Of a stretch of 64,000 bases of DNA, positions 1 to 13,272 are shown piece after piece. The notes under the pieces were generated by a model, which was not told the DNA's origin, made no database searches, and was given only the letters and a program-made list of their open reading frames with translations. Numbering within the stretch: position 1 is the stretch's first letter; each line of letters begins with the position of its first letter. The stretch lies in the NCBI RefSeq assembly GCF_026343185.1, contig NZ_JAPEMA010000001.1, positions 4,340,001 through 4,404,000 on the forward strand, in the 5' to 3' direction. Made by a program: the position numbers and the translations under genes. The stretch comes from Streptomyces sp. NBC_00091 (GTDB lineage: Bacteria; Actinomycetota; Actinomycetes; Streptomycetales; Streptomycetaceae).

Positions 1-1236
1 TTCCGCGATCTCGTGGATCGAGGTGCGGAAGGCGTCGTCGTTGGCCATGATCCCGAAGGTGCGGTCGCCCAGCGCCAGCACCATCGCGCCGGTCAGGGTG
101 GCGACGTCGACGATCGCGTCCGGGTTGTCCTCGGAGGCCTTGGTCAGGGCGTCGCCCAGGACCAGGCGGCCCTCGGCGTCCGTGTTCAGGACCTCGACGG
201 TCTTGCCGCTGTACATGCGCAGCACGTCACCGGGCTTGGTGGCGGAGCCGGACGGCATGTTCTCGGCGAGCGCGAGCCAGCCGGTGACGTTGACCTGGAG
301 GCCCAGCTTGGCGGCGGCGATGACGGCGGCGAAGACGGCGGCGGCGCCGGACATGTCGCACTTCATCGTCTCGTTGTGGCCTGCCGGCTTCAGGGAGATG
401 CCGCCCGAGTCGTAGGTGATGCCCTTGCCGACAAAGGCGAGGGTCTTCTCCGCCTTGGCGTGGGTGTAGGAGAGCTTCACCAGGCGCGGCGGGTTCTCGG
501 AGCCCTTGCCGACGCCCATGATGCCGCCGTAGCCACCCTTGACCAGGGCCTTCTCGTCGAGGATCTGGACCTTGACGCCGTTCTCCTTCGCGGTCGCGGA
601 GGCGACGGCGGCGAAGGCCTCGGGGGTGAGGTCGTTCGGCGGGGTGTTGATCAGGTCGCGGGCGACGTTGACCTCGGTGGCGACGACGATGGCGCGCTCG
701 GCCGCGGCCTTGTGCTCCTTGTCGCGCGGCTTGGCGCCGAGCAGGGCCACCTCGGCCAGCGGCTGCTTGGGGCCGCCGTTCTTGGAGCCCTTCTTCTCGC
801 CGCCCTGGTAGGCGGTGAAGGCGTACGCGCCCAGCAGTGCGCCCTCGGCGACGGCGGTGACGGCGGAGGCGTCGTCCAGGGGGAGGGCGAAGGCGGCCTT
901 CTTGGAGCCGTGCAGGGCGCGGGCGGCGGAGCCGGCGGCGCGGCGCAGGGCCTCCTCGTCGAAGGACTCGTCCTGCTCCGGCGCGGTGCCCAGGCCGACG
1001 GCCAGCACGACCGGGGCCTTGAGGCCGTCCGGGGCGGGCAGCTTGGTGGTCTCGCCTTCGGCGCCGGTGGCGCCGAGCGAGTCGAGCACGGCGGCCAGCT
1101 TTCCGTCGAACGCCTTGTCAACGGCCTCGGCGCCTGCGGCGACGACGAGCCCCTTCGGGCCCTTTGCCACGCCGACCACGAGGGCGTCGGCGCGCAGCGT
1201 CGCCGCGCCGGCAGTGCTGAGAGTCAGAGCAGTCAC
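1..1236 (-). CDS. pepA: Leucyl aminopeptidase, C-terminus cut by window edge
   Basis: Cytosolic M17 dimetal aminopeptidase that releases N-terminal residues from peptides. The first 412 codons are present and translation continues past base 1. The M17 signature NTDAEGRL is visible near the truncated end, preceded by the metal-binding stretches VGKGITYDSGG and MKCDMSGAA. The N-terminal 170 or so residues form the variable non-catalytic domain (GLGTAPEQDE region). I chose the GTG at 1236-1234, giving M-TALTLSTAGAATLRAD, which matches the usual short start of Streptomyces PepA; a purine-rich stretch lies upstream. It is divergent from the polysaccharide cluster and shares its 357-bp intergenic region. 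Identification is firm; only the C-terminus is missing. Confidence 0.95.
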   Translation of the reverse strand, partial: MTALTLSTAGAATLRADALVVGVAKGPKGLVVAAGAEAVDKAFDGKLAAVLDSLGATGAEGETTKLPAPDGLKAPVVLAVGLGTAPEQDESFDEEALRRAAGSAARALHGSKKAAFALPLDDASAVTAVAEGALLGAYAFTAYQGGEKKGSKNGGPKQPLAEVALLGAKPRDKEHKAAAERAIVVATEVNVARDLINTPPNDLTPEAFAAVASATAKENGVKVQILDEKALVKGGYGGIMGVGKGSENPPRLVKLSYTHAKAEKTLAFVGKGITYDSGGISLKPAGHNETMKCDMSGAAAVFAAVIAAAKLGLQVNVTGWLALAENMPSGSATKPGDVLRMYSGKTVEVLNTDAEGRLVLGDALTKASEDNPDAIVDVATLTGAMVLALGDRTFGIMANDDAFRTSIHEIAE

Positions 1237-1593
1237 GGTGGTGAAGTCTCGCTTCCGTTTGTGTTAGTGGGCGCTTGGGTCGCGTCGGGGTCACCGGCCG
1301 CTCCGCAGCGATCGTATTCGGGCCCGGTGGCCGCCGGAAATGAGCCTACGCGCAGGTACTCATCCGTACGTCACTCGAAGGTTTGTCAAGTTGTTCGATC
1401 AACGGGTCATCAGGTTCACCCATCTGTGGACTCTGCTCCAGGTTTGCCCTTTAGACCTGACGAGGTCCGAGAGACTCGAGTCGCTCTCGCAAGGGGACGC
1501 GGGGTCCTTTTGCATGATTTCCACAGAGCCTCCCCGGCCCGGCCGTCCGCCCAGGGCCGTTGCCGAGGGACGCCTGCGGGGGGAAAGGCCGAA
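1237..1593. promoter_or_regulatory. Divergent intergenic region, pepA / Pel-like cluster
   Basis: This 357-bp gap separates divergent genes and must hold both promoters. It is visibly less GC-rich than the coding DNA around 1340-1460. I see no convincing coding frame. A purine-rich ribosome-binding stretch (ggggggaaagg) sits about 6-15 bases before the ATG at 1594. No clear -35/-10 pair or operator can be assigned by eye. Confidence 0.5.
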
Positions 1594-3621
1594 ATGGTCA
1601 ACAAGAACCGGATGAACAGGGTCGCCGCGGCGATGGCCGCAGCAGCCCTGATGTCCGTGGCAGCACCCGCCGCGACCGCCCAGGCGGCGGTCGTGACACC
1701 GCGCATCGACCTGAAGGTGCTGGTCGTCGACGACGGCGGCAGCTCGGTCGGGGCGATCACCGCACAGCTCAAGGACACCGGGGTCCCGTTCACCCGCATC
1801 GACCTGGCCGCCGCCGGGCGCCCCGTCATCAACGCGGCGTTCCTCAGCGACACGGTCGACGGCCGGCCCCGGGCCAAGTTCCAGGGGGTCGTGCTGCCCA
1901 ACGAGAACCCCTTCGGCGCCGGCTCCGCCGAGATGGCGGCGCTCACCGCGTACGAGACGACGTACGGGATCCGCCAGGTCGACGCCTACACCTGGGCCCA
2001 CCCCGGGGTCGGACTCGAGTACACGGACAACGGCGGCTACAGCGGGCAGCTCGACGGCACCCAGGCCGCCGTCACGGCCGCCGGCAAGACGGGCCCCTTC
2101 GCCTACCTCGGAGGTCAGGTCACCTTCGAGGACAACTCCACCCTGGTCCCGGAGAGCTACGGGTTCATGGGCAAGCCGCGCCCCGGCTACACCAGCTACG
2201 TCGACGCGCCCGTCGCCGGCGGACGGGCCTCGCTGGTCGGCGAGTACACCCACGACGGACGCAGCGAACTGGTCGTCACCTTCGGCTACAACCAGCACCA
2301 GCAGCAGTTCCGGCTGCTGGCCCGCGGCATCGTCGAATGGCTCACCCAGGGCGTCCACCTCGGGCAGGAGCGCAACTACTTCGCGGTCCACGTAGACGAC
2401 GTGTTCGCCCCGGACGCCCGCTGGAACAAGGAGCTCAACTGCACGCCCGGCGACTACGCCTGCGCGGGCGGCGAGGGCAAGGAGAGCACCATCCGGATGA
2501 CCGCCGCCGACGCCCAGTACGCGGCGCAGTGGCAGACCTCCAAGAGCTTCAAGCTGGACATGCTCTTCAACGCGGGCGCCGGCGAGGAGTGGAAGGCCGA
2601 GAACGGCAACGCCGACGCGCTGACCGCCCAGCTCGTCGCCGACCGGGCCAAGTACCGCTGGATGAACCACACCTACACGCACCCCTTCCTCGGCTGCGTC
2701 CAGGACACCACCACCGTCCCCTGGACCTGCACGAAGAACGCCCAGGGCGCCATCAACTGGATGAGCCGCGCCGAGATCTCCGCCCAGATCCGCGACAACA
2801 ACAACTGGGCCGCCTCCAAGGGCATCACCACCGACCGCACCGAACTCGTCACCGGCGAGCACTCCGGCCTCAAGACCCTCCCGCAGATGGCCCAGGACAA
2901 CCCCAACCTGGCGGGCGCCCTCGCCGACAACGGGGTCAAGTGGGCGGGCAGCGACAACTCCCGCGAGCCCGCGCAGCGCGCGGTCGGCGCCGCCCTGACC
3001 GTCCCCCGCCACCCGATGAACGTGTACTACAACACGGGCACCAACGCGGAGATGGCCGACGAGTACAACTGGATCTACACCAGCCGCGCCGACGGCGGCA
3101 GCGGCGTCTGCGAGGACAACCCCGCGACCTCCACCTGCCTCCCGGCCCCGCTGAACACCGCCACCGGCTACGTGGACTACATCGTCCCGGCCGAGGCGCG
3201 GACCGCCCTGCGCCACGTACTGGCCAACGACCCGCGCCCGCACTACGTCCACCAGTCCAACCTCGCCGAGGACCGCACCCTGTACCCGGTGCTCAACCAG
3301 GTACTCGACACCTACCGCTCGCTCTACGCGCCCAGCGCGCCGATCGTCAACCCGAGCATGCGGGAGAGCGGCGTCGAGTTCCAGCGCCGGGCCGCCTGGG
3401 ACAAGGCCATCGCCGCCGGCCAGGTCACCGCCTACAAGATCGGCAAGGACGTCGTCGTCAAGGCGCCCTCCGGCGTCGTAGCCCCCGTCACCGCGCCCAA
3501 CGGGACGAAGAAGCAGATGCTGCTCGGCACCACCGACTTCGGCACCGCCTACGCCGGAGCCCGCAGTGCCTGGACGGCTCCCGAGCTGCTCCAGTCGGCG
3601 GTCACCCTCAAGCTCCTCTGA
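1594..3621 (+). CDS. Secreted PelA-like polysaccharide deacetylase
   Basis: Exported 675-aa protein, probably an N-deacetylase of an amino-sugar polymer. Residues 1-31 form a Sec signal peptide (basic MVNKNRMNR, alanine-rich core, cleavage near AQA-AV). A Rossmann-like segment follows (LKVLVVDDGGSSVGA). The NodB-like metal-binding residues are visible: HVDD at 266-269 (the Asp pair of motif 1) and NHTYTH with His359 and His363 (motif 2). TGEH at 420-423 may be a further active-site segment. This arrangement resembles the deacetylase part of PelA. The GH114 hydrolase half of PelA is not fused here but is encoded separately at 7595. The ATG at 1594 follows a good purine-rich site; the open frame extends far upstream only because of GC bias. 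Enzyme class is likely; substrate (GalNAc or GlcNAc polymer) is inference. Confidence 0.75.
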   Translation: MVNKNRMNRVAAAMAAAALMSVAAPAATAQAAVVTPRIDLKVLVVDDGGSSVGAITAQLKDTGVPFTRIDLAAAGRPVINAAFLSDTVDGRPRAKFQGVVLPNENPFGAGSAEMAALTAYETTYGIRQVDAYTWAHPGVGLEYTDNGGYSGQLDGTQAAVTAAGKTGPFAYLGGQVTFEDNSTLVPESYGFMGKPRPGYTSYVDAPVAGGRASLVGEYTHDGRSELVVTFGYNQHQQQFRLLARGIVEWLTQGVHLGQERNYFAVHVDDVFAPDARWNKELNCTPGDYACAGGEGKESTIRMTAADAQYAAQWQTSKSFKLDMLFNAGAGEEWKAENGNADALTAQLVADRAKYRWMNHTYTHPFLGCVQDTTTVPWTCTKNAQGAINWMSRAEISAQIRDNNNWAASKGITTDRTELVTGEHSGLKTLPQMAQDNPNLAGALADNGVKWAGSDNSREPAQRAVGAALTVPRHPMNVYYNTGTNAEMADEYNWIYTSRADGGSGVCEDNPATSTCLPAPLNTATGYVDYIVPAEARTALRHVLANDPRPHYVHQSNLAEDRTLYPVLNQVLDTYRSLYAPSAPIVNPSMRESGVEFQRRAAWDKAIAAGQVTAYKIGKDVVVKAPSGVVAPVTAPNGTKKQMLLGTTDFGTAYAGARSAWTAPELLQSAVTLKLL

Positions 3622-3685
3622 CCCGCTCCCACCCGTCGTACGCCCCGAACAGCCCGTACGACCCGCAGCACTCGTAACACCCAGA

Positions 3686-3718
3686 GCCGGCGCTCCGCCA
3701 ACGACCACGGGCGCCGGC
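3686..3718 (+). terminator. Hairpin between deacetylase and pelF-like gene
   Basis: An 8-bp perfect stem (GCCGGCGC at 3686-3693 with GCGCCGGC at 3711-3718) and a 17-nt loop is followed by a short cccctttt run. It could be a partial terminator or attenuator that lowers expression of the downstream genes relative to the deacetylase. The T-run is weak. Confidence 0.4.
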
Positions 3719-3747
3719 CCCTTTTCCGTCCTGGGGGGACACACCGC

Positions 3748-5292
3748 ATGAGCCGTGGGCGTCATGTCACCATGCTCACCGAAGGCACCTATCCGCACGT
3801 CCACGGGGGAGTCAGCACCTGGTGCGACCAACTGGTGCGCGGTATGCCGGAGGTCGACTTCAACGTCATAGCCCTGACCGGCTCCGGACGCGAGCCGGTC
3901 ACCTGGGAACTGCCCCGCAACGTCTACCGGCACACCTCCGTCCCGCTCTGGGGCCCGACACCGCCCCGCACCCGCCGCCGGGCCCTGCGGGGCAAGGCCC
4001 ACCGCCGCTTCACCGACACCTACGAAACCTTCCTGCTCTCCCTGATCGACGCCGAGCGCGGGGGATTCTCCGAGGCCCTGGGCGAACTCGCCGGCCTCGC
4101 CCGGGCCGGCCGGCTCGCCCCGGCCCTGCGCTCCGAATCGGTACTGCGCCTGCTGATGGACGTATGGACCCGCCCCGGCCTGCTCACCGCCGCCGCCCGG
4201 CCCACCATCCACGACGCGCTCACCGCCACCGACCTGCTGGAACACGCCCTGCGCCCGCTGTCGGTACGGATCCCGCCCGACTGCGTCGCCCACGCCGTCA
4301 GCAGCGGCCTCGCCACCCTCCCCGCCCTCGCCGCCAAACGCCTCGACGGAGTGCCCTTCCTCCTCACCGAGCACGGCATCTACCTGCGCGAGCGCTACCT
4401 CGGCTACCGCAGCGCCGCCCAGCGCTGGCCCGTCAAGGCCCTGATGCTGGGCTTCTACCGCGAGCTGAACTCCGAGGGCTACCGGCAGGCCGACCTGATC
4501 ACCCCGTGCAACCAGTACAACCGCCGCTGGGAGGAACGCGGAGGCGCCGACTCCGAACGGATCCGCACCGTCTACAACGGCGTCGACCCGCACGCCTTCC
4601 CCGAAGCCGGCCCCGAACCCGAGGTCCCCACCCTCAGCTGGTGCGGCCGCATCGACCCGATCAAGGACCTCGAAACCCTGATCCGCGCCTACGCCTTCAT
4701 GCGCGAGGAGCTGCCCGCCCTGCGCCTGCGCCTCTTCGGCCCCGTCCCGGCCGGCTGCGAGGAGTACAAGCTGCGCCTGGAGAAACTCGCCGCCGAGCTC
4801 GGCGTGGGCGACGGCATCTCGTACGAGGGCCGCATCGACCAGGTCGCCAAGGCCTACGCGGCGGGCTCCGTCGTCATGCTCTCCAGCATCAGCGAGGGCT
4901 TCCCCTTCAGCATCATCGAGGCCATGTCCTGCGGCCGCACCACCGTCTCCACCGACGTCGGAGGCGTCCGCGAGGCCGTCGGCGACACCGGCCTCGTCGT
5001 CCCGCCCCGCGAACCGGAAACCATGGCCCGCGCCACCCTCGCCCTGCTCCGCGACGACGAACGCCGCGCCGAACTCGGCCGGATGTCCCGCAAACGGGTC
5101 GTCGAGAAGTTCACCCTCCACCAGTCCGTCGACGGCTTCCGGCACATCTACCGGGGCCTCGCCGATGAGAAGCGTGCCGGCCAGCCCGCCGTGCCCCTCC
5201 ACACCGGCGACGACTGGTCCCAGCGCCTCGCCGACCCCTGGCACAAGGACCCCTGGAACAAAGAACTCGCAGCCGACGGGAGCCTGTGGTGA
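3748..5292 (+). CDS. pelF: PelF-type GT4 glycosyltransferase
   Basis: Cytosolic retaining glycosyltransferase of 514 aa. In Pel systems PelF uses UDP-sugars to polymerise the chain. The N-terminus MSRGRHVTMLTEGTYPHVHGG is typical of PelF: the TEGTYP-x-GGVS-x-W stretch is the acceptor-side loop. The C-terminal Rossmann domain has CGRIDPIKDLETLIRAY (about residue 297 on) and the GT4 nucleotide-sugar motif E383-x7-E391 in SEGFPFSIIEAM. Length agrees with PelF (about 500 aa). It starts 126 bp after the deacetylase gene; its stop overlaps the next start (GTGA), suggesting translational coupling to the membrane protein. Family assignment is strong; donor sugar cannot be read from sequence. The symbol marks family membership, not proven Pel synthesis. 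Confidence 0.85.
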   Translation: MSRGRHVTMLTEGTYPHVHGGVSTWCDQLVRGMPEVDFNVIALTGSGREPVTWELPRNVYRHTSVPLWGPTPPRTRRRALRGKAHRRFTDTYETFLLSLIDAERGGFSEALGELAGLARAGRLAPALRSESVLRLLMDVWTRPGLLTAAARPTIHDALTATDLLEHALRPLSVRIPPDCVAHAVSSGLATLPALAAKRLDGVPFLLTEHGIYLRERYLGYRSAAQRWPVKALMLGFYRELNSEGYRQADLITPCNQYNRRWEERGGADSERIRTVYNGVDPHAFPEAGPEPEVPTLSWCGRIDPIKDLETLIRAYAFMREELPALRLRLFGPVPAGCEEYKLRLEKLAAELGVGDGISYEGRIDQVAKAYAAGSVVMLSSISEGFPFSIIEAMSCGRTTVSTDVGGVREAVGDTGLVVPPREPETMARATLALLRDDERRAELGRMSRKRVVEKFTLHQSVDGFRHIYRGLADEKRAGQPAVPLHTGDDWSQRLADPWHKDPWNKELAADGSLW

Positions 5293-6881
5293 GCGGATCC
5301 CTCTGGCTCAAGCCCCCCGGCCCGGAAGGCTCCTGGGTCCACATCGGCCACCCGGCCCCCACCGGCCGCACCGACACCCTGCCCGCCCTGCCCCGGCCCC
5401 GCGCCGCCGGGGCGGGCGCCCCGGCCGCCCCGGCCGCCGACCCCATGGACGAACTCGCCGAACGCCTCGACGTGTTCGTCGCGGCGGCCGTCCACCCCGA
5501 CGAGATCGCCGCCATCCTCGAATCCGACGGGATGACCGACGAGTACATCCGGCTCACCTACGGCCGCCACGACTCCTTCGCCCTCGCCGAGGAGCTCTAC
5601 ACCCGCGTGCCCCGCTCCTTCCCGGAGCCCGACCGGCTCCCCGACCCCTGGAAGGTCTCCCTCACCGCCTGCCTGCTGCGCGGGCTGATCTTCGCCCTGC
5701 CCGGCCTCGCCTACGTCCTCGGCGCGCCCCTGCTGGAAGGCCCGCCGGACCGGCTCGGACTGCCCGCCGGCACCCTCACCCTGCTCGCCGGCGCCCTCAT
5801 CGGCTGGGTCTGGGACCAGAGCCTGTCCCACCGCGCCTACTCCTGGCTCGGCCTCGGCGACCGGGCCGCCGCCGGGCGGACCCTGCTCGCCGGAGCCCCC
5901 GCCGGGGCACTGCTCGGCACCGCCGCCGCCTTCGCCGTCCCCGGCGGGCCGCCCTTCTCGTACGCCTTCGCCGCCGGCCAGGCCCTGTACGTCGGGGCCG
6001 CCACCGTACTGCTGGTGCTCGGCCGCGAGCGGGTGCTGCTCGCAGCCCTCGGCCCCATGGCCGTCGGGGCGGTCCTCGCGCTCTCCACCGGCCTGCCCGT
6101 ACCGGTACGGGTCGCCCTGCTCGTGGTGTCCCTGGTCGCCGCCTGCGCCCTCGCCCTGCGGGAGCTGCCGCTGGCCGAAGGCGTACGGGCCGCGGTGCGC
6201 AGGATCCACCGCTGGGCGGAGCGCCACCCGGGCGAAGGCGGTCCGGTGCGCTGGCGGATGCTGCGCGGCGCCGAGGAGGAGCACACCCGGCGCGGGCCCC
6301 GGATCGGGGACTCGGTGCCCTACGGGGTGTTCGGCCTCGGCACCGGCCTGCTGGTGCTGTACGCCGCGCTGGGGGAGGTCCTCAGCGGAGGCCCCGCCGA
6401 GGCGGTCGCCGCCCCCTCCGCGGTGGCCCTCACCCTCAGCATGGGCCCCGCCGAATGGCTGCTCCACCGCTTCCGCAGCGGCAGCCTCGCCGGGCTCCGC
6501 GCGGCCCGCTCGCCCCGCGCGTTCCGGCGCCGGATGCTCCTCACCCTGGCCCGCTGCCTCGCCGTCTACCTGCTGGTGCTGCTCGCCCTGGGCGTCACCG
6601 GGACCGTGCTGTGGCCGCAGGCCCCGAGCCTGACCGGACTGCGCGTCGCCACCCTGCTGCTGCTCGGCGCCGTGATGTGGACCGGGCTGCTCCTGCAGTC
6701 CTTCGGCTCGGTCCGGCCCGCCGCGGTGGTCTGCGCCGGCGCGGCCTTCGCCCAGAGCCTGGCCCTGCTGGCCGGGATCGGGCAGCCGCGCCTGGTCCAG
6801 CTGGCGGTCGCCGCCACCGCCGCCACGGCCCTGACCGTGCTGGTCTGCCTGCTCCTCGGCCGGGCGACCGCACACCGCTGA
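5289..6881 (+). CDS. Polytopic membrane protein of the Pel-like cluster
   Basis: Not recognised by name. It encodes about 530 aa. A soluble N-terminal region of about 120 residues (PMDELAERLDVFVAAAVHPD, then DEYIRLTYGRHDSFALAEEL) precedes about ten or more hydrophobic segments, for example LRGLIFALPGLAYVLGAPLL, GTLTLLAGALIGWVW, VALLVVSLVAACALAL and LAVYLLVLLALGVTGTVLW. A cytosolic arginine-rich loop (AVRRIHRWAERHPGEGGPVR) lies in the middle. Two in-frame GTG codons (5286, 5289) are possible; the second gives a GTGA overlap with the glycosyltransferase stop. By position and topology it could play the PelG part (polymer export across the membrane), but I see no sequence motif proving this. PelG is usually about 450-500 aa with about 12 helices, so size is compatible. 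Confidence 0.75.
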   Translation: MSGSLWLKPPGPEGSWVHIGHPAPTGRTDTLPALPRPRAAGAGAPAAPAADPMDELAERLDVFVAAAVHPDEIAAILESDGMTDEYIRLTYGRHDSFALAEELYTRVPRSFPEPDRLPDPWKVSLTACLLRGLIFALPGLAYVLGAPLLEGPPDRLGLPAGTLTLLAGALIGWVWDQSLSHRAYSWLGLGDRAAAGRTLLAGAPAGALLGTAAAFAVPGGPPFSYAFAAGQALYVGAATVLLVLGRERVLLAALGPMAVGAVLALSTGLPVPVRVALLVVSLVAACALALRELPLAEGVRAAVRRIHRWAERHPGEGGPVRWRMLRGAEEEHTRRGPRIGDSVPYGVFGLGTGLLVLYAALGEVLSGGPAEAVAAPSAVALTLSMGPAEWLLHRFRSGSLAGLRAARSPRAFRRRMLLTLARCLAVYLLVLLALGVTGTVLWPQAPSLTGLRVATLLLLGAVMWTGLLLQSFGSVRPAAVVCAGAAFAQSLALLAGIGQPRLVQLAVAATAATALTVLVCLLLGRATAHR

Positions 6882-6944
6882 CCCGCCGCCGGCCCGCCCG
6901 CGCCCCGACCACCCGTGACCCCGTACGAGAAGACGAAGGACCCC

Positions 6945-7598
6945 ATGCTGCTGGTGCCGCTCTACGAGCACCCCGCCGACCGGCCCGAGGAGTGGGAGCG
7001 GCTCATCCGCTCCGCCGGGCAGCTGCACTCGGTGGTGCTCAACCCCGACAGCGGGCCCGGCCAGGCCCCCGACGAGCGGTTCGCCGCCGTCTCCGCGCGA
7101 CTGCGGGACGCCGGCGTGCCCGTCCTCGGGTACACCGACACCGACTACGGGCGGCGCCCGCACGCCGCCGTCGTCCAGGACCTGCTGCGCCACCGCGACT
7201 GGTACGGGGCCGACGGGTCCTTCCTCGACCAGGCCTCCGCCGACCCGGCCCTACTGCCCCACTACGGCCGGCTCGCCGTCGCCGCCCGGGCCGCGGGGGC
7301 CCGTACGCTCGTCCTGAACCACGGCGTCCACCCGCACCCCGGGTACGCCCGGCTCGCCGACCTGCTCGTCACCTTCGAGGGCCCCTGGGACGCCTACCGC
7401 GACGCCGCCTCCACACCGCCGCCGTGGACCGCCGACCATCCCGCGCAGCTGTTCTGCCACCTCGTCTACGCCGTCCCGCCGGACGCGCCCGCCGCCGAAC
7501 TCGCGGCCCAGCGCCACGCCGGGGTGCACTGCGCGGTCCCCGGCACCGGAGCACACCCGTGGGGAACCCTCCCGTACGCGTTGGAGGCGTCCGGATGA
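6945..7598 (+). CDS. Spherulin-4 / GH135-like protein
   Basis: Predicted TIM-barrel protein of 217 aa related to spherulation-specific family 4; fungal Sph3 is an endo-alpha-1,4-N-acetylgalactosaminidase of GH135. Family-like stretches are MLLVPLYEHP at the start, HSVVLNPDSGPG, the strand VPVLGYTDTDYGRR, GSFLDQ and LLVTFEGPWDAY. The expected acidic pair is D95-Q96 here rather than Asp-Glu; E145 in VTFEG matches the other conserved acid. No signal peptide is visible, so it would act in the cytosol unless exported by another route. I chose ATG 6945 because GAAGGA lies 4-5 bases upstream; GTG 6915 is an alternative without a ribosome site. Its stop overlaps the next ATG (ATGA). Family call is good; activity uncertain given the Gln. 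Confidence 0.75.
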   Translation: MLLVPLYEHPADRPEEWERLIRSAGQLHSVVLNPDSGPGQAPDERFAAVSARLRDAGVPVLGYTDTDYGRRPHAAVVQDLLRHRDWYGADGSFLDQASADPALLPHYGRLAVAARAAGARTLVLNHGVHPHPGYARLADLLVTFEGPWDAYRDAASTPPPWTADHPAQLFCHLVYAVPPDAPAAELAAQRHAGVHCAVPGTGAHPWGTLPYALEASG

Positions 7599-8416
7599 AG
7601 CGTTTCACCACCGCCCTCGCCGGGGCCTGCGCCACCGCACTGCTGCTACTCACCGCCTGCACCGCCGAACCGGACGACGACGAGGCCCCCGGCCTCTGGC
7701 CCGCCCCGGTGCCGGGGGAGCGCTGGCAGCCCCGCCCCGGTACGGCCTGGCAGTGGCAGCTCACCGGAAGGCTGGACACCTCCGTCGACGTACCGGTGTA
7801 CGACGTCGACGGGTTCACCACCGCCAAGGAGGAGGTCGCCGCGCTGAAGAAGGCCGGCCGCCGGACCATCTGCTACCTGTCCACCGGCGCCTGGGAGGAC
7901 TTCCGGCCGGACGCGGACGCCTTCCCGAAGGCGCTGCTCGGCGAGGGCAACGGCTGGGAGGGGGAACGCTGGCTGGACATCCGGCAGACCGCCACCCTGG
8001 AGCCGCTGATCGCCAAACGCTTCGACATGTGCCGGGACAAGGGCTTCGACGCGGTCGAGCCCGACAACATGGACGCCTACCGCAACAAGTCCGGCTTCCC
8101 GCTGACCGCCGGGGACCAGCTGACGTACAACCGGCTCATCGCCCGCCTCGCCCACGAGCGGGGACTGGCCGTCGGACTCAAGAACGACCTCGACCAGATC
8201 CCGCAGCTGGTCGGCGAGTTCGACTTCGCGGTCAACGAGCAGTGCGCCCAGTACGACGAGTGCGAGGAGCTGACCCCCTTCATCAAGGCGGGCAAGGCCG
8301 TCTTCCACGTCGAGTACGAACTCCCCGCCTCCCGCTTCTGCAAGCAGTCCCGCCGCCTGAAGCTCAGCTCCCTGGAGAAGAAGCTCGAACTGGGCCCGTG
8401 GCGCAAGGCGTGCTGA
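7595..8416 (+). CDS. GH114 endo-alpha-1,4-polygalactosaminidase-like lipoprotein
   Basis: Predicted secreted or membrane-anchored glycoside hydrolase of 273 aa. GH114 enzymes cut alpha-1,4-linked galactosamine polymers, and the same fold is the hydrolase half of PelA. Residues 1-24 are a lipoprotein signal ending in LLLTAC. The barrel begins WQWQLTGRLD, with VPVYDVDGF, TICYLSTGAWEDFRPD, GFDAVEPDNMDAY (E155, D157, D160), GLKNDL, FDFAVNEQC and FHVEYE, all typical of GH114. Length matches a single-domain family member. It ends the cluster, overlapping the spherulin-4-like gene by 4 bp. The next DNA, 15 bp downstream of the stop, is an IS630-family end, so any further cluster genes could have been displaced. 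Confidence 0.9.
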   Translation: MKRFTTALAGACATALLLLTACTAEPDDDEAPGLWPAPVPGERWQPRPGTAWQWQLTGRLDTSVDVPVYDVDGFTTAKEEVAALKKAGRRTICYLSTGAWEDFRPDADAFPKALLGEGNGWEGERWLDIRQTATLEPLIAKRFDMCRDKGFDAVEPDNMDAYRNKSGFPLTAGDQLTYNRLIARLAHERGLAVGLKNDLDQIPQLVGEFDFAVNEQCAQYDECEELTPFIKAGKAVFHVEYELPASRFCKQSRRLKLSSLEKKLELGPWRKAC

Positions 8417-8431
8417 AGGATCCGGGGGAGC

Positions 8432-8457
8432 TACTGAACTTGATTGGGTGATGTCGG
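8432..8457 (+). repeat. Left copy of 26-bp inverted repeat (IS630 5' end)
   Basis: Begins TACTGAACTTGATTGGG and is the exact reverse complement of 10042-10067. The outer TA fits the IS630 target-site duplication. It lies 15 bp after the GH114 stop. Confidence 0.85.
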
Positions 8458-8485
8458 GCCGTTGCACCTGACGGCCCGTAGGTCT

Positions 8486-8600
8486 AGTTCTGTGGCTGCG
8501 AGATACGCGCAGGGCGGCGGCTTGACTGAGCCCGAGAGGCTGGCCGAGTCAGCTGGGGTCACTGGGGTGGGCTGGGGTCGTGGTGGTTCCGTATCTCCCC
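8486..8600 (+). pseudogene. IS630-family transposase, N-terminal fragment
   Basis: Short + strand coding relic reading about VAARYAQGGGLTEPERLAE, clearly homologous to the start of the opposite-strand transposase relic (VRYAQDGGLTDVGRAAR). The resemblance fades after about 40 codons, where the sequence becomes unrelated. The 3' boundary is approximate. It cannot make transposase. Confidence 0.6.
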
Positions 8601-8670
8601 CGCAGGGGGGAGGAACACCTTGTGCCCTGGGTGGATGCGCGGAGCACTTGTCCCTCGGCAGGGTAATGAC

Positions 8671-9234
8671 ATGCGTCGACGCACCGAATCCAGCATGTCG
8701 TACATCGGCCCGCCGCTGACCATCAGGCGGGCAGCGATTGCGGGCGCCATCGGCTGCCTTCCCTATGTGGCGATGAAGCTCTACTGGTCATGGGGCGGAA
8801 CGGCGGGCAAGCCGGTGGGCATGAGTATCGCCGAGGAATTCACCAAGAACGGGGCTCCCCAGGTTCTTGTATGGCTGGAGGAACACGGGATCGACTTCAC
8901 GGCCGTGGGTATCCTTCTGGGCATCACGCTCCTCGGAGCTCTCACCCGACCATGGGGTCAGATCTTCCCGCGCTGGGTACCCGGGCTGCGGGGACGGCGG
9001 GTCCCGCGATGGCTTCCCCTTGCACCCGGATGGGCCTCGGCGGTGGCCCTCACTCCCTACGGAGGCCTCGGCCTGGTGGTGATTGCGACCGGTGGGCTCT
9101 CCACGGCAAACTTGGCCGGTATGTCCCCGTGGGTCTTCATTATCGGCTTCGTTAACTTTTTCTCTATGGGATTGTCCCTCGGCGTATGCGCGTTGTCCTA
9201 CCAGCGTCGGACCAAGTCGATAGTGCAGCACTGA
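8671..9234 (+). CDS. Small integral membrane protein, function unknown
   Basis: Not recognised. Encodes 187 aa with about four hydrophobic segments: RRAAIAGAIGCLPYVAMKLYW, FTAVGILLGITLLGALT, a middle segment around GLGLVVIATGGLSTANLAG, and PWVFIIGFVNFFSMGLSLGVC. A basic stretch GLRGRRVPRWLP lies between helices. ATG 8671 is preceded by a weak GGCAGGG site. Codon use is less G/C-biased than in the flanking operons (for example cttcgttaactttttctctatgg), suggesting acquired DNA. It sits between the two IS630 remnants and may be cargo or a bystander. Confidence 0.65.
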   Translation: MRRRTESSMSYIGPPLTIRRAAIAGAIGCLPYVAMKLYWSWGGTAGKPVGMSIAEEFTKNGAPQVLVWLEEHGIDFTAVGILLGITLLGALTRPWGQIFPRWVPGLRGRRVPRWLPLAPGWASAVALTPYGGLGLVVIATGGLSTANLAGMSPWVFIIGFVNFFSMGLSLGVCALSYQRRTKSIVQH

Positions 9235-9269
9235 ATCGCCACCACACATTGCCGACGGCCAACCGGTGG

Positions 9270-9998
9270 TCAGATATCCATGGTCAGACCGGTTCCGGCG
9301 AGGCAGCCATCGACCAAGTGCGGCCGGTACTGGATCTGCTTGAGGCTTCGCTTCAACGGCCTTGGCCATCTGGTCGAGGTTTGCGGCAGCGAGGTTGCCG
9401 ATGGTCCGTTTGACCAGGGCCCAGATGCCCTCCTGTGGGTTGAGGTCGGGTGCGTAGGAGGGCAGCTGGAAGACGGTCAGCCTGCGGCATCAGGTGCGCG
9501 CGGAGGTCGTCCCAGACCAGCACGAGCGGACCGGCGAGATGGATGTGCGCGCGGACGATCAGGTCACGGTAGTCCCGCCAGGTGAAGCCCTTCTTCTCGC
9601 CCTTGCGGCCCCGGTAGAGGCCCCACGGGCCGCCGCGGCGCTTTTACCTGCGGCCAGACCTCCTGCTTCCACAGCTCGACAGCCGCATCGTCACGCTCGA
9701 TCGCCCGGCTGCTGCCACGACCACCCGTGCCGCTTCAGCAGCCGCCACGTGCCCTCCACCGTGTACGAGACGTGGAACAGCCGGCCGATCAGCGTCTTCA
9801 CCCGAGCCAGAGTTCACCGCTGGTCCGGCCATCCGTGGGAGAGCGGCCCGCGCTCCAACTCCCGCTCCAGCCTCACCACTTGCTGTTTGCTTCCCGGTTC
9901 TTCTCCCCGCCTCCGAAGCGTTCCACGGCCTGCAGCCGGATCCGCTCCCGCGCGGCCCTCCCGACGTCGGTCAACCCGCCGTCCTGCGCGTATCTCAC
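9270..9998 (-). pseudogene. IS630-family transposase, degenerate
   Basis: Reverse-strand DDE transposase relic. Reading across frames gives an N-terminal VRYAQDGGLTDVGRAARERI, then RLERELERGPLSHGW, LIGRLFHVSYTVEGTWRLLK with HGWSWQQP, and a C-terminal part with PLVLVWDDLRAHLMPQ, TVFQLPSYAPDLNPQEGIWA and TIGNLAAANLDQMAKAV, the classic IS630 C-terminal signature. An in-frame stop (W to TGA near 9817), at least two frameshifts and loss of the segment carrying the first catalytic Asp make it non-functional. The stop is at 9270-9272 (..GLTMDI). Family identity is firm. Confidence 0.8.
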
Positions 9999-10041
9999 GG
10001 TCCAGGGCTACCGGAACCGGCCAGGAGCTGTCAGGCGAGCT

Positions 10042-10067
10042 CCGACATCACCCAATCAAGTTCAGTA
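10042..10067 (-). repeat. Right copy of 26-bp inverted repeat (IS630 5' end)
   Basis: Exact reverse complement of 8432-8457. It supplies the stop codon (10062-10064) of the reverse-strand membrane-protein gene that reads into it. Confidence 0.85.
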
Positions 10068-10751
10068 TCTCAACTCACGCGCTTGCCGGTGATCGCGCCA
10101 CCAACTCCAGATAACCTGCACGACCAGAGTGAACGCAACCACGGCCGCGATGAACCGAACGGTGTGCCAGGTATTCAAGACAACTGCACTCTGCCCACGA
10201 GCCTCCCCGTCCAGCCGCATGGAAGTCTCGTAAAATGCGATGACCGGAATGAGAAGCCGAAAGAAGAGGCCGCCAAGTCCCGGAATCCGCGCCACGTTGC
10301 CGAGGAATCCGACAGGCGCCCCGAATGTAAACGCCAGCGTTCCCCACACCATGATTTTAGAGAGTGATCCTCCACTCGAGGTGTCGACCTCCATCCCGGC
10401 CGGAGTGGCGAGGCTGAGATCCTTGAACAGGTAGTAAGTGGTCACTCCGATGGCCAGTCCGAAAGGCGCAAGCAGAGCCGACTCGATTTTGGACCGGCGG
10501 AAATAACCCACCAGGAACGCATAACAGGCCCATGACCACCCGCCGTAGAGGACGGCGTTCACGACCACGCTTACAGGATTGTCCGACTTCTCGGAAATGG
10601 GGCCCAGCAGGCCGAGCACCAAGCCGACGCCGAGTGGCCCTGCCAGCGACGCGGTGCGAGCGAGCGCAAAGCTTGCGATTTCTCTTCTCCGTTCATTCCG
10701 AACCCAAGCCGGCACGCTACGCCCAGTCGCCGTCAGGGCTGGGGCGGGCAT
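10062..10751 (-). CDS. Membrane protein, C-terminus altered by IS end
   Basis: Not recognised. 229 aa with about five hydrophobic segments: AGPLGVGLVLGLLGPI, VVNAVLYGGWSWACYAFLVGY, ALLAPFGLAIGVTTYYLF, MVWGTLAFTFGAPVGFLGNV and FIAAVVAFTLVVQVIWSWW. The N-terminus is basic. ATG 10751 is chosen over an upstream TTG; no good ribosome site is visible. The stop codon falls inside the IS630 terminal repeat and the last residues (..ELRY) are at the junction, so the natural C-terminus may have been lost on insertion. Base composition is less extreme than the backbone. Confidence 0.65.
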   Translation of the reverse strand: MPAPALTATGRSVPAWVRNERRREIASFALARTASLAGPLGVGLVLGLLGPISEKSDNPVSVVVNAVLYGGWSWACYAFLVGYFRRSKIESALLAPFGLAIGVTTYYLFKDLSLATPAGMEVDTSSGGSLSKIMVWGTLAFTFGAPVGFLGNVARIPGLGGLFFRLLIPVIAFYETSMRLDGEARGQSAVVLNTWHTVRFIAAVVAFTLVVQVIWSWWRDHRQARELRY

Positions 10752-10810
10752 CAATGAGTGGCTGCGACCGGCCGTCGTACGAAACCGGCCAGGACGACGG
10801 TGCCTCAGCG

Positions 10811-11194
10811 TCAGGAACTCATGGCAGCTCGGTCGGACTCACTGCGCAGAACGCAGAATTCGTTACCTTCGGGATCGGCAAGGATTGCCCAGCCTGAACC
10901 ATCGGGATTCCGGTGATCAGTGACAAAGGTGGCACCGAGGCCCAGTAGCCGGTCCACCTCCTGATCGCGCGAGGTCTCAGGGCGCAAACACAGATGGATC
11001 CGATTCTTGATCGTCTTGGCCTCGGGCACCTGGTTGAAGTACAGCACCGGGCCCTCCGCCAGCAGCACCTGAGTCTCCCGGTCGCCCGGTCTGACATCCG
11101 GATGCATCGGACGGTCCGTCACACTGCTCCAGAACCGGGCCAGCTCATAGGCATCCGCACAGTCAATCGCCACGTTCTGCAATACCGAAACCAT
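10811..11194 (-). CDS. VOC (glyoxalase/bleomycin-resistance fold) protein
   Basis: Cytosolic 127-aa protein with the VOC beta-alpha-beta-beta-beta architecture. Recognisable pieces are VLQNVAIDCADAYELARFWSS, PVLYFNQVPEAKTIKNRIHL and GWAILADPEGNEFCVL, the usual closing motif of this superfamily. Length fits a single two-module domain. These proteins may bind metals and small molecules, and some give drug resistance; no substrate can be inferred. ATG 11194 is chosen because GGAAGG lies upstream and the VOC fold starts there; the frame stays open further 5'. It stands alone in the accessory island. Confidence 0.85.
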   Translation of the reverse strand: MVSVLQNVAIDCADAYELARFWSSVTDRPMHPDVRPGDRETQVLLAEGPVLYFNQVPEAKTIKNRIHLCLRPETSRDQEVDRLLGLGATFVTDHRNPDGSGWAILADPEGNEFCVLRSESDRAAMSS

Positions 11195-11241
11195 GCGCCC
11201 CAGCCTTCCCGACTTCCACTCCAGACGCCACCGAGCTGCAC

Positions 11242-11439
11242 TCATCGCTCGCGCACAGCGCCGGTCACGGCGCCGGGTCTCTCAGGACCTACATCTTCTG
11301 GCAGGTCACCTTTGCTCGGTGGTACGGGAAAGTGACGGTGTTGCCCTTCCAGCCAACGCTCCCCGGCGCAGGCCACCACCGCGAGCACCACCGGAACCCC
11401 CGCCACCGCGACGGATGCCCACTTCATCCAACGCTTCAT
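11242..11439 (-). CDS. Small membrane-anchored peptide, hypothetical
   Basis: Encodes 65 aa: basic start MKRWMKW, one hydrophobic segment ASVAVAGVPVVLAVVACAGE that could be a signal anchor or a weak lipoprotein signal, then a polar proline-rich tail. A good GGGGGAG ribosome site precedes ATG 11439. It lies upstream of, and on the same strand as, the VOC gene. No family is recognised. It could be a genuine small gene or chance coding. Confidence 0.5.
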   Translation of the reverse strand: MKRWMKWASVAVAGVPVVLAVVACAGERWLEGQHRHFPVPPSKGDLPEDVGPERPGAVTGAVRER

Positions 11440-11554
11440 CGCGGAGCTCCCCCAAGGTCTCCGACTTCCTGTAGCGAGCTGGACCCTACCTGAAGTTGAT
11501 CAAGGACATGAGCCCAGCCAGATCACCTCGGCACGGACCAACCGGAAGACGTCC

Positions 11555-12355
11555 TCAGCGGCCGGCGGCCGTCTTGGGCTGGTCGAACGCGTACGGCGTG
11601 CCTCGTTCCCACAGTTCCTCGGCGTGGCCGGAGAAGCGGTCGAACATGCCCTCCTTGTTCTGTCGGCGCAGGTGGAACATGGGCGAGTCGTGTCCGATGA
11701 CGCGAGCGAGGTGGGGCGTGACGAGGGCGTCGGAGTCGAAGAGGAACACGCTGAGGCCGACGTGGTTGGTGGCGTCTTCCGGGGCGCTGACGCGGACTTC
11801 CAGGCCGTCCAAGGGTCCGATCCGGTCCAGTTGTTCGAGGGTCATGCGGATGCGTGTGGAGACGGTCAGGGCCGCGTCCTCGATCGCCTCGCGCTGTCGA
11901 GTGGTCTCGCCGTTCGGGTCGCCCAGGAGGAAGCGGACGCGGCATCCGTTCCCGGCCTTCTTCCGAATGATCCCGGTGAAGTCGGGGATCATGGTCCAGA
12001 AGAAGTAGTTCGTGTACCCGGACAGCAGCATGTCGGTGGTCGTCTCCGCGACCAGCTTCGCCCACGTCGTGGAAGGGCACGCGGAGCGGTAAGGGTACGA
12101 GTGGACCAGCTCCTTGTCCTGCCCGACCTTCACGCGGCTGGTCACTGCTTCGGGCCAGATCATGCGCTCTTCAACTCCCAACACCCGAGCCACATCTGCA
12201 CGGTTTCGAGCATGCGGCACCAGCGCGGGATCCGCTAACCAACGAGTGACCGTCTTCCCTGATACCCCCACCCGATCAGCCAGCTGATGTGGTCTCACAC
12301 CGGCGTCGGCCATAGCTGAACTCAAAGCCGTGTTCAAGAGTCCTCCACTGGACAT
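11555..12355 (-). CDS. XRE-type HTH regulator with PLD-like C-terminal domain
   Basis: DNA-binding regulator of 266 aa. An N-terminal HTH is visible at about residues 12-65 (ALSSAMADAGVRPHQLADRV, GVSGKTVTRWLADPALVP, then an AARVLG-type end). The remaining 190 residues resemble the C-terminal domain attached to such HTHs in Streptomyces (DUF5919-like): ELVHSYPYRSACPSTTW, GCRVRFLLGDPNGETTRQRE, IGHDSPMFHLRRQNKEGMFD. I chose ATG 12355, preceded by GGAG; a longer start at 12406 would overlap the divergent gene. It is divergent from two overlapping small genes, a layout seen repeatedly in Streptomyces accessory regions. Ligand and targets are unknown. Confidence 0.8.
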   Translation of the reverse strand: MSSGGLLNTALSSAMADAGVRPHQLADRVGVSGKTVTRWLADPALVPHARNRADVARVLGVEERMIWPEAVTSRVKVGQDKELVHSYPYRSACPSTTWAKLVAETTTDMLLSGYTNYFFWTMIPDFTGIIRKKAGNGCRVRFLLGDPNGETTRQREAIEDAALTVSTRIRMTLEQLDRIGPLDGLEVRVSAPEDATNHVGLSVFLFDSDALVTPHLARVIGHDSPMFHLRRQNKEGMFDRFSGHAEELWERGTPYAFDQPKTAAGR

Positions 12356-12380
12356 TTGGGCGTTCTCCAGGGGTGGGGTC

Positions 12381-12653
12381 GTGCTGACTCCGCCTGACCG
12401 ATTCACCTCACTGGAACAGCTGGTGGCTGCTTTGGCCGTCGTGTGTTCGGACGAGCACGACCGGGCCCGCCGGGTATTCGGCGAGGGCTACGAACGGAGG
12501 TTGCCGATTCTCGGTGGTGGGGCCGCGATGCGAGCACGACGGCCTCTGGCCACGCCCGAGGCCGTGACTGGACCCAGTCAGGAACTAATCGACCGTGCTC
12601 GTGCTGGTTGGGAACGCTTCCTCGACACCTTCGAGGAGGCATCCGATGAGTGA
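12381..12653 (+). CDS. Small hypothetical protein paired with XRE regulator
   Basis: Encodes 90 aa, acidic and soluble, with no signal or membrane segment. It includes RFTSLEQLVAALAVVCSDEH and ELIDRARAGWERFLDTFEEA. GTG 12381 follows a G-rich stretch; the ATG at 12330 is upstream but overlaps the divergent regulator. It overlaps the following gene by 8 bp, implying coupled translation. Function unknown. Confidence 0.6.
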   Translation: MLTPPDRFTSLEQLVAALAVVCSDEHDRARRVFGEGYERRLPILGGGAAMRARRPLATPEAVTGPSQELIDRARAGWERFLDTFEEASDE

Positions 12654-12903
12654 GCAGTACGAGTACGTCCCGCACCGTCTCCTCAGCCGCCGGGTCCGCG
12701 ACATCGCATCCGGCGCCGAAGGCGAGCTGATGGCCGTGATCAACGAAAACGTGTCGGACTCCGTCGCCTACGAGCGCTGGATGGAACTGGCCTACATCCG
12801 GGGTGCGTCCGGCCGAGAGTTCACCACCGCCGTCGCAAACGTCGAACCCGCCAATGACCAGCCCAAGATGGCCGTCGGACGCCAAACCATCGGCAGCGCG
12901 TAG
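12646..12903 (+). CDS. Small hypothetical protein, overlaps preceding gene
   Basis: Encodes 85 aa, soluble, beginning MSEQYEYVPHRLLSRRVRDI. AGGAGG lies 6-7 bases before ATG 12646, an unusually good ribosome site. It contains VSDSVAYERWMELAYIRGAS and ends ..GRQTIGSA. It shares 8 bp with the upstream gene. No family is recognised; with the regulator it forms a three-gene module. Confidence 0.65.
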   Translation: MSEQYEYVPHRLLSRRVRDIASGAEGELMAVINENVSDSVAYERWMELAYIRGASGREFTTAVANVEPANDQPKMAVGRQTIGSA

Positions 12904-13272
12904 CGATCTGACGCGCCTGGGCGCTCCGCAGGGGGCTCTGGTCAACATTTGGTGCGGGTGGCCGGGCCCCCGGTCCTGGGCCAGCCCATCAAGGTGCCCG
13001 GATGCCCGGCGGGCCGGTGCCCGGCTCCTCGACTGGACTGTGACGGGCCCGTCCCTTGCCCTTGGACCGGGCCGTTCTTTTGGGGGTTTCCCGGCAGTCT
13101 TCGTTTTTCCGGGGCGGGACGGTCTGTCAAGGGTGGCCGAAGGCCATCGCGAAGCGACGCGAACGAAGTGAGCGCCCTTGACCGGCCGGCCCGACACGGA
13201 AGGACGATGAGACTGACGGGAAACCCCCAAACCCTCCCTGAGACCGCCCAGGGGAGGCCGCCCCCCGCCCCC
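12904..13272. other. Non-coding gap ending the accessory island
   Basis: 369 bp between two convergent genes. It holds several short G+C-rich inverted segments around 12995-13030 (repeated GTGCCCGG/GCCCGGC units) and 13060-13085, where gggccgttcttttggggg could act as a terminator. No coding frame, attachment site or tRNA end is evident. Confidence 0.5.

Follow-up and report, generated by a model that had tools for sequence, protein, structure and literature searches.

A probable galactosaminogalactan/Pel-type synthase operon in Streptomyces, and relatives with an inactive-looking hydrolase

Why should the machinery that makes an exopolysaccharide include an enzyme able to cut the polymer made? 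The question is described as open (PMC5933820), and it is raised again by an operon of Streptomyces sp. NBC_00091. In the 64,000-nucleotide stretch of this genome that was analysed (the window), the map of open reading frames (ORFs) contains five head-to-tail genes, all on the plus strand and closely packed, which fill positions 1594 to 8416 and encode, in order, a deacetylase, a PelF-type glycosyltransferase, an exporter and two glycoside hydrolases of families GH135 and GH114. We consider that this is probably a galactosaminogalactan (GAG)/Pel-type synthase operon working by the mechanism proposed below; its gene content, protein families, conserved order, catalytic residues, the lack of a signal on GH135 and the lipobox of GH114 are the sequence evidence that carries this reading. 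The original prediction had listed five co-directional genes, and all five ORFs are present. It had also noted no PelB, PelC, PelD or PelE, and because the five genes fill the interval, none of these four lies within 1594-8416. Of its overall Pel / galactosaminogalactan-like interpretation the GAG-type gene set stands, whereas the label of a PelA-type deacetylase does not.

Is the arrangement a chance one? The gene order, whose conservation across Streptomyces the original prediction proposed as a check, is complete (CE18, PelF, membrane protein, GH135, GH114) in 60 of 80 named loci, which argues that the operon is not a product of chance. These named loci are the best 80 of 562 matches to the deacetylase profile and hence close relatives, 79 titled Streptomyces and one 'Actinobacteria bacterium'. 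The other 20 retain CE18, PelF, exporter and GH135 (8 loci), CE18, PelF and exporter (4), CE18 and PelF (4), CE18, PelF, exporter and GH114 (2), CE18 alone (1) or CE18 and GH135 (1); nine of them stop no more than 250 nt from a contig end and the remaining 11 are real variants. Contig-cut loci included, PelF is found in 78/80 and the exporter in 74/80. In all 80 the operon occupies one chromosomal site, with pepA (a name that we presume from the look of the protein, without a family search) divergently upstream, at most 700 nt from the CE18 domain in 79.

The first gene (1594..3621, plus strand, 675 aa) encodes a polysaccharide deacetylase predicted to be secreted via an N-terminal signal-like segment. 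By profile and predicted fold it is Agd3-like (CE18 with CBM87) and not PelA-like. The deacetylase profile matches 6nwz with an E-value of 6.3e-9, and among 13 family members 11 match the Pfam family Agd3_CE at E <=0.1, the best at 6e-7, and eight match CBM87. Candidate catalytic residues, D268 as base, D269, H359 and H363 as metal ligands and H553 as acid, are invariant in the 13 sequences. The protein is a candidate for metal-dependent de-N-acetylation of GAG. The CE18 assignment reflects best matches by profile and fold, and is set apart from CE21 and CE26 by published descriptions. A PelA-type (CE4/CE21) enzyme, the earlier label, was rejected, since there is no Pfam CE4 match and Agd3 is best by both profile and fold. 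At one further locus, L097, which has two copies of PelF, the CE18 gene next to them is fragmented and interrupted by in-frame stops, either a decayed gene or an assembly error.

The second gene (3748..5292, plus strand, 514 aa) encodes a cytoplasmic PelF-type GT4 glycosyltransferase, matching NCBIfam NF038011 with 169.9 bits (cut-off 100) and DUF3492 with 191 bits. Its motif SEGFPFSIIE at residue 382 contains E-x7-E, which we take to be the GT4 motif. The third gene (5286..6881, plus strand; start GTG 5286 or 5289, giving 531 or 530 aa) encodes a predicted 12-helix exporter of the MOP superfamily with a PelG-like role, its model folding into two six-helix bundles (MATE/MurJ fold) with WzxE and MurJ among its fold neighbours. 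A helical N-terminal domain of this exporter (residues about 51-112, positions 5436..5621, plus strand) recurs on distant exporters beside PelF. Profile matching picked it up in 62 of 63 Streptomyces loci, the exception being a fragmentary one (L052); at L098 the profile missed it and it is visible by eye only. Moreover, among the 116 matches listed in a length-selected search, 17 unite PelF and this domain within a single chain, 16 of them with an exporter profile match. From the sequences compared, this domain appears to travel with PelF, and the fusions suggest that synthesis is coupled to export. The single-chain proteins are P0240, P0241, P0249, P0333 and 13 others, some partial. No fungal Gtb3 was recognised among the 116 homologues listed, a search that scored only the 7988 candidates sharing most words and is not evidence of absence.

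Is the exporter a PelG? As a plain PelG it was rejected, for the direct profile comparison fails and Pfam returns no match to the PelG family (PF16933). A chain of profiles through A6, a set of four exporters that also carry this N-terminal domain, leads further: A6 against PelG gives 95.4% (E 2e-8; reversed control 0.2%), and A2 against A6 gives 98.5%, a match that spans the N-terminal domain, with the membrane part alone at 3%. The pooled C-termini of the fusions bridge both sides (99.7 and 99.3%), the pool mixing two groups; unpooled, the step between the groups reaches 22.9% at best (E 9e-4). One other value of 99.7% was discarded because the two alignments shared L099; once L099 is taken out of the first, the value drops to 41% or less. 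Homology to PelG is thus likely though unproven by sequence, the link through A6 being suggestive.

The two hydrolases close the operon. The GH135 gene (6945..7598, plus strand) encodes an Sph3/spherulin-4-type, endo-alpha-1,4-N-acetylgalactosaminidase-like protein, with 102 bits to the Spherulin4 family PF12138 and Sph3 (5c5g, E 6e-7) as its closest match in the PDB; it keeps the Asp of GSFLDQ, the Asn of VLNHG and the Glu of VTFEG. Its start is more likely ATG 6945, behind AAGGA, and therefore the protein has 217 aa and begins at the catalytic domain, although annotators may pick GTG 6915 (227 aa). GH135 was found in 69 named loci besides the window; VTFE is kept in 70/70, and an AAGGA-type site before a start codon at the first domain residues passed a loose test in 45/70, the window included. 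The distance to the exporter was measured in 69 of the 70 (L173 has no exporter): the median gap between the exporter stop and the beginning of the domain is 35 nt (range 5-451), and in 55 loci it does not exceed 54 nt. The 14 loci with more than 60 nt ahead of the domain encode no hydrophobic stretch there, the best 15-residue mean being 0.41, compared with 2.1 for the CE18 and GH114 signals. In the window and the other 68 loci measured neither a signal peptide nor room for one was found, and because it lacks a signal peptide GH135 is predicted to be cytoplasmic. The GH114 gene (7595..8416, plus strand, 273 aa) encodes a lipoprotein (lipobox LTAC) resembling the endo-alpha-1,4-galactosaminidase Ega3, with 285 bits to PF03537 and Ega3 (6oj1, E 6.9e-58 over 201 residues) as best PDB match. 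The motifs EPDNMD and NEQCAQY are both present in 63/63 GH114 genes found, all of which pass a permissive lipobox pattern. Genes 2 to 5 thus bear out the original prediction, which had named a PelF glycosyltransferase, a polytopic membrane protein, a spherulin-4/GH135-like protein and a GH114 lipoprotein; it had also placed a GH114-type hydrolase in Pseudomonas PelA, an attribution that fails, as the hydrolase of P. aeruginosa PelA is GH166 (PMC12054363). Sph3 prefers fully acetylated GAG (PMC12054363) and Ega3 deacetylated GAG (PMC7229062), so that, given the predicted locations, each hydrolase would sit where its substrate should exist.

Do all Streptomyces clusters keep this hydrolase active? 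We read the neighbours in 63 Streptomyces loci, picked by exporter matches (L105 by deacetylase) and not at random. Type A, that of the window, has no insert and accounts for 25/63. In type B (12/63; L024, L025, L027-L032, L046, L050, L051, L105) genes for a LegB-like 4,6-dehydratase (450.7 bits, below the cut-off of 475), a nucleotidyltransferase and a short-chain dehydrogenase/reductase (SDR) stand between exporter and GH135, possibly marking a 6-deoxy amino-sugar variant. Type C (24/63; L047, L048, L101, L104, L190-L209), a sister cluster beside moeZ, reads PelF, exporter, SDR and GH135, with moeZ in every piece, and both CE18 and GH114 are absent in 24/24 of the loci read. The remaining two are L049, with a divergent CE18 cluster, and L052, a cluster in decay of which only pieces of CE18, exporter and GH135 are left. 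In an alignment of GH135 from 40 CE18-bearing loci (36 Streptomyces, three others and the window) and the 24 of type C, the catalytic column is Glu in 39/40 of the former (exception L052) and in 0/24 of type C (Ser 9, Ala 6, Arg 5, Gln 2, Cys 2). The Asn column, whose role is our presumption, is Asn in 40/40 and 0/24, and the Asp column is Asp in 39/40 and 17/24. The Glu is equated, without a residue-by-residue numbering map, with Glu222, the acid/base of Sph3 (PMC12054363). Types A, B and C form separate clades in the PelF tree (support 0.98, 0.62 and 1.0) and in the GH135 tree (0.89, 0.82 and 1.0), so that the loss of residues in type C is most simply one old event and not 24. Counted as single proteins among the matches listed, type C PelF (>=61% identity to L047, E <=3e-103) occurs in 85/101 Streptomyces genomes and the A/B exporter (E <=3e-43) in 50/101. 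Since many genomes carry both, what type C makes could be a substrate for the deacetylase of type A.

Outside Streptomyces, CE18 was detected in 13/396 actinobacterial genomes and 7/236 genera, at the sensitivity of that search. PelF lies close by in six of the seven non-Streptomyces CE18 loci read; L093 is CE18 alone. In Rubrobacter xylanophilus (G112) PelF, a true PelG (459 bits) and a CE18 enzyme above both Pfam cut-offs follow one another, GH135 being encoded on the opposite strand, and by its gene content this cluster links the Pel and GAG kinds. A row of PelF, true PelG and Agd3-type deacetylase is seen at both Rubrobacter loci, L094 and L095; upstream in L094 is a HEAT/TPR protein that is PelE-like by look only.

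How might the operon work? From these genes we infer the donor sugar, polymer structure, docking of PelF, direction of transport and the role of each hydrolase. PelF would polymerise an activated amino sugar, most likely UDP-N-acetylgalactosamine (UDP-GalNAc), in the cytoplasm, and the MOP-fold protein would probably dock PelF by its N-terminal domain and move the growing polymer through the membrane. The secreted CE18 enzyme would strip part of the acetyl groups, yielding a cationic, adhesive polymer, and the GH114 lipoprotein, on the outer face, may cut deacetylated stretches and so tune length or release. GH135 may act inside on the fully acetylated nascent chain, for example by clearing stalled or mis-exported polymer. 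More tentatively, and with rather less confidence than in the operon as a whole, cutting could be split by compartment, with GH135 kept inside alongside PelF and exporter, and GH114 anchored on the outside, as is the case for the secreted deacetylase; the type C GH135 could be a catalytically dead partner that holds the chain or serves as an assembly subunit in the complex of PelF and exporter.

Several points weigh against this account. The mechanism is deduced from genes, polymer and enzyme activities being predicted only. The window deacetylase taken alone falls under both Pfam cut-offs, its predicted structure is of moderate confidence (pLDDT 65.7), the Met two residues ahead of the catalytic His of Agd3 is a Tyr, and the CM3 Arg has only a candidate, R472 (VPRHPMN), present also in Rubrobacter but replaced by Asp in L049. 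The exporter fold is a prediction with a weak Foldseek score, and in direct hhalign comparison with PelG the probability is 0.1-0.5%. Neither a Uge3-type nor any other UDP-GalNAc epimerase gene lies in 1594-8416. GH114 was not found in nine named loci free of a contig-end cut, among them L173, nor in the fetched piece for 11/39 CE18-bearing Streptomyces loci, and the tie between CE18 and GH114 is therefore a loose one. At L173, a named Streptomyces locus, CE18 is followed directly by GH135, with PelF and exporter neither between nor beside them. An inner GH135 also departs from the standard fungal model, which places the action of Sph3 at the outer face (PMC12054363), and in Rubrobacter the GH135 begins with a signal-like segment (mean hydrophobicity 2.15).

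Could the same genes serve another end? PelF might extend a lipid-bound oligosaccharide that the MOP protein flips, as Wzx and MurJ do, leaving a wall- or lipid-anchored glycan in place of a free polymer. The MOP superfamily is a flippase superfamily and WzxE and MurJ are among the fold neighbours, but the five genes include no priming transferase, Wzy polymerase or ligase and the PelF-exporter fusions speak for coupled synthesis and export, and we regard this as unlikely. Somewhat less likely still is a chain of another alpha-linked amino sugar in place of GalNAc, with type B making a 6-deoxy (FucNAc- or QuiNAc-like) variant: the LegB-nucleotidyltransferase-SDR module of the 12 type B loci read suggests it, whereas the window is of type A and lacks these genes, and GalN/GalNAc polymers are what the GH114 and GH135 enzymes studied to date are able to cut (PMC12054363).

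An operon of the Pel type proper that has lost PelD and PelE, with polymer, exporter and deacetylase orthologous to those of Bacillus pelDE-ADA-FG, would account for a PelF above its cut-off and for an exporter whose predicted fold and remote kin point to PelG, and in B. cereus, too, PelADA is built of three domains (CBM+CE; PMC13254593). It is nevertheless improbable, as the deacetylase matches CE18 whereas Pel enzymes are CE21 or CE26, the exporter lacks a match to the PelG HMM, no PelD or PelE is in the operon, and GH135 with an Ega3-like GH114 is the GAG set. Lastly, secreted CE18 and GH114 might attack the GAG of soil moulds, with imported products cut by cytoplasmic GH135. The predicted locations would suit such a catabolic or antifungal set, L173 carries CE18 and GH135 but lacks PelF and exporter, and Streptomyces griseus is cited in PMC7229062 as secreting an endo-galactosaminidase; yet PelF and the exporter accompany CE18 in nearly all named loci and no importer or sugar kinase is among the five genes, and we regard this alternative to the synthase reading as improbable too.

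For a GAG/Pel-type synthase, Streptomyces offers a natural test of the question asked at the outset, because an active-looking inner GH135 with a deacetylase (A, B) and a GH135 without catalytic residues or deacetylase (C) often occur in one genome. If the split by compartment and the dead type C GH135 are true, the need for a hydrolase in polymer making would be at least partly structural and lie on the synthesis side of the membrane. The operon product is also a candidate adhesin of industrial mycelia, besides the CslA polymer. The MatAB polymer is a further one (PMC5972031).

Divergent to the operon, pepA occupies positions 1-1236 on the minus strand, and the intergenic region of the ORF map (1237..1593, no strand assigned) is the presumed promoter region; a promoter scan found no sigma-70-like site, and three weak terminator-like sites stand against 1.9 expected. 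The exporter start overlaps the pelF stop and the GH114 ATG the GH135 stop, each by a few bases, as in translationally coupled operons. The window is collinear with the closest comparison genome (G001), at 91% identity, from base 1 to 8416, breaking at the end of the GH114 gene. Just downstream, in 8417-13000, G+C drops to 0.61-0.66; this drop and the end of collinearity indicate a likely insertion or variable region.

How does the operon compare with known systems? By gene content it is a GAG-type cluster minus the epimerase. Clusters of this kind are known in bacteria from Bamford et al. 2020, who report Agd3 homologues in 45 bacterial species and, in a tree of 35 species, agd3 in or near operons with carbohydrate-active genes in 30 (PMC7229062). 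Those operons encode a cytoplasmic glycosyltransferase together with a polytopic membrane protein; GH114 is often present as well, and spherulin-4 in some of the Actinobacteria (PMC7229062), and the window has all of these with its CE18. Beyond the available main text of that paper, the family of the membrane protein is named here, GH135 is placed in the cytoplasm and types A, B and C are separated. In the full-text literature, with subscription papers mostly outside it, we found neither functional work on this cluster in Streptomyces nor any reference to a GH135 that is inner or catalytically dead; an inner GH135 with outer deacetylase and GH114, type C with its inactive-looking GH135 and type B with its LegB module were not found described.

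Like the Bacillus cereus operon pelDE-ADA-FG, the window has PelF, an external three-domain deacetylase and an exporter whose fold class is probably the same; unlike it, the deacetylase has its best matches in CE18, where that of Bacillus is CE26, PelD and PelE are absent from the operon, and GH135 and GH114 replace PelAH. Rubrobacter xylanophilus (L094) shares the closeness of PelF and CE18 with GH135 adjoining, and differs in its true PelG, its upstream TPR/HEAT protein and a GH135 with signal-like N-terminus on the other strand. With the fungal GAG cluster (Gtb3, Agd3, Sph3, Ega3, Uge3) of Aspergillus and Neurospora the operon shares the clustering of an Agd3-type deacetylase, GH135, GH114 and an integral-membrane glycosyltransferase function, whereas its glycosyltransferase and exporter are two genes and its GH135 is without signal or membrane anchor. 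Fungal Gtb3 is a single-protein 'integral membrane glycosyltransferase', and Bamford et al. suggest a transfer from bacteria to fungi (PMC7229062). The PelF-exporter fusions resemble Gtb3 in being single proteins, and fused and unfused bacterial counterparts of the fungal GAG synthase bear on the proposed bacterial origin of a mould virulence polysaccharide.

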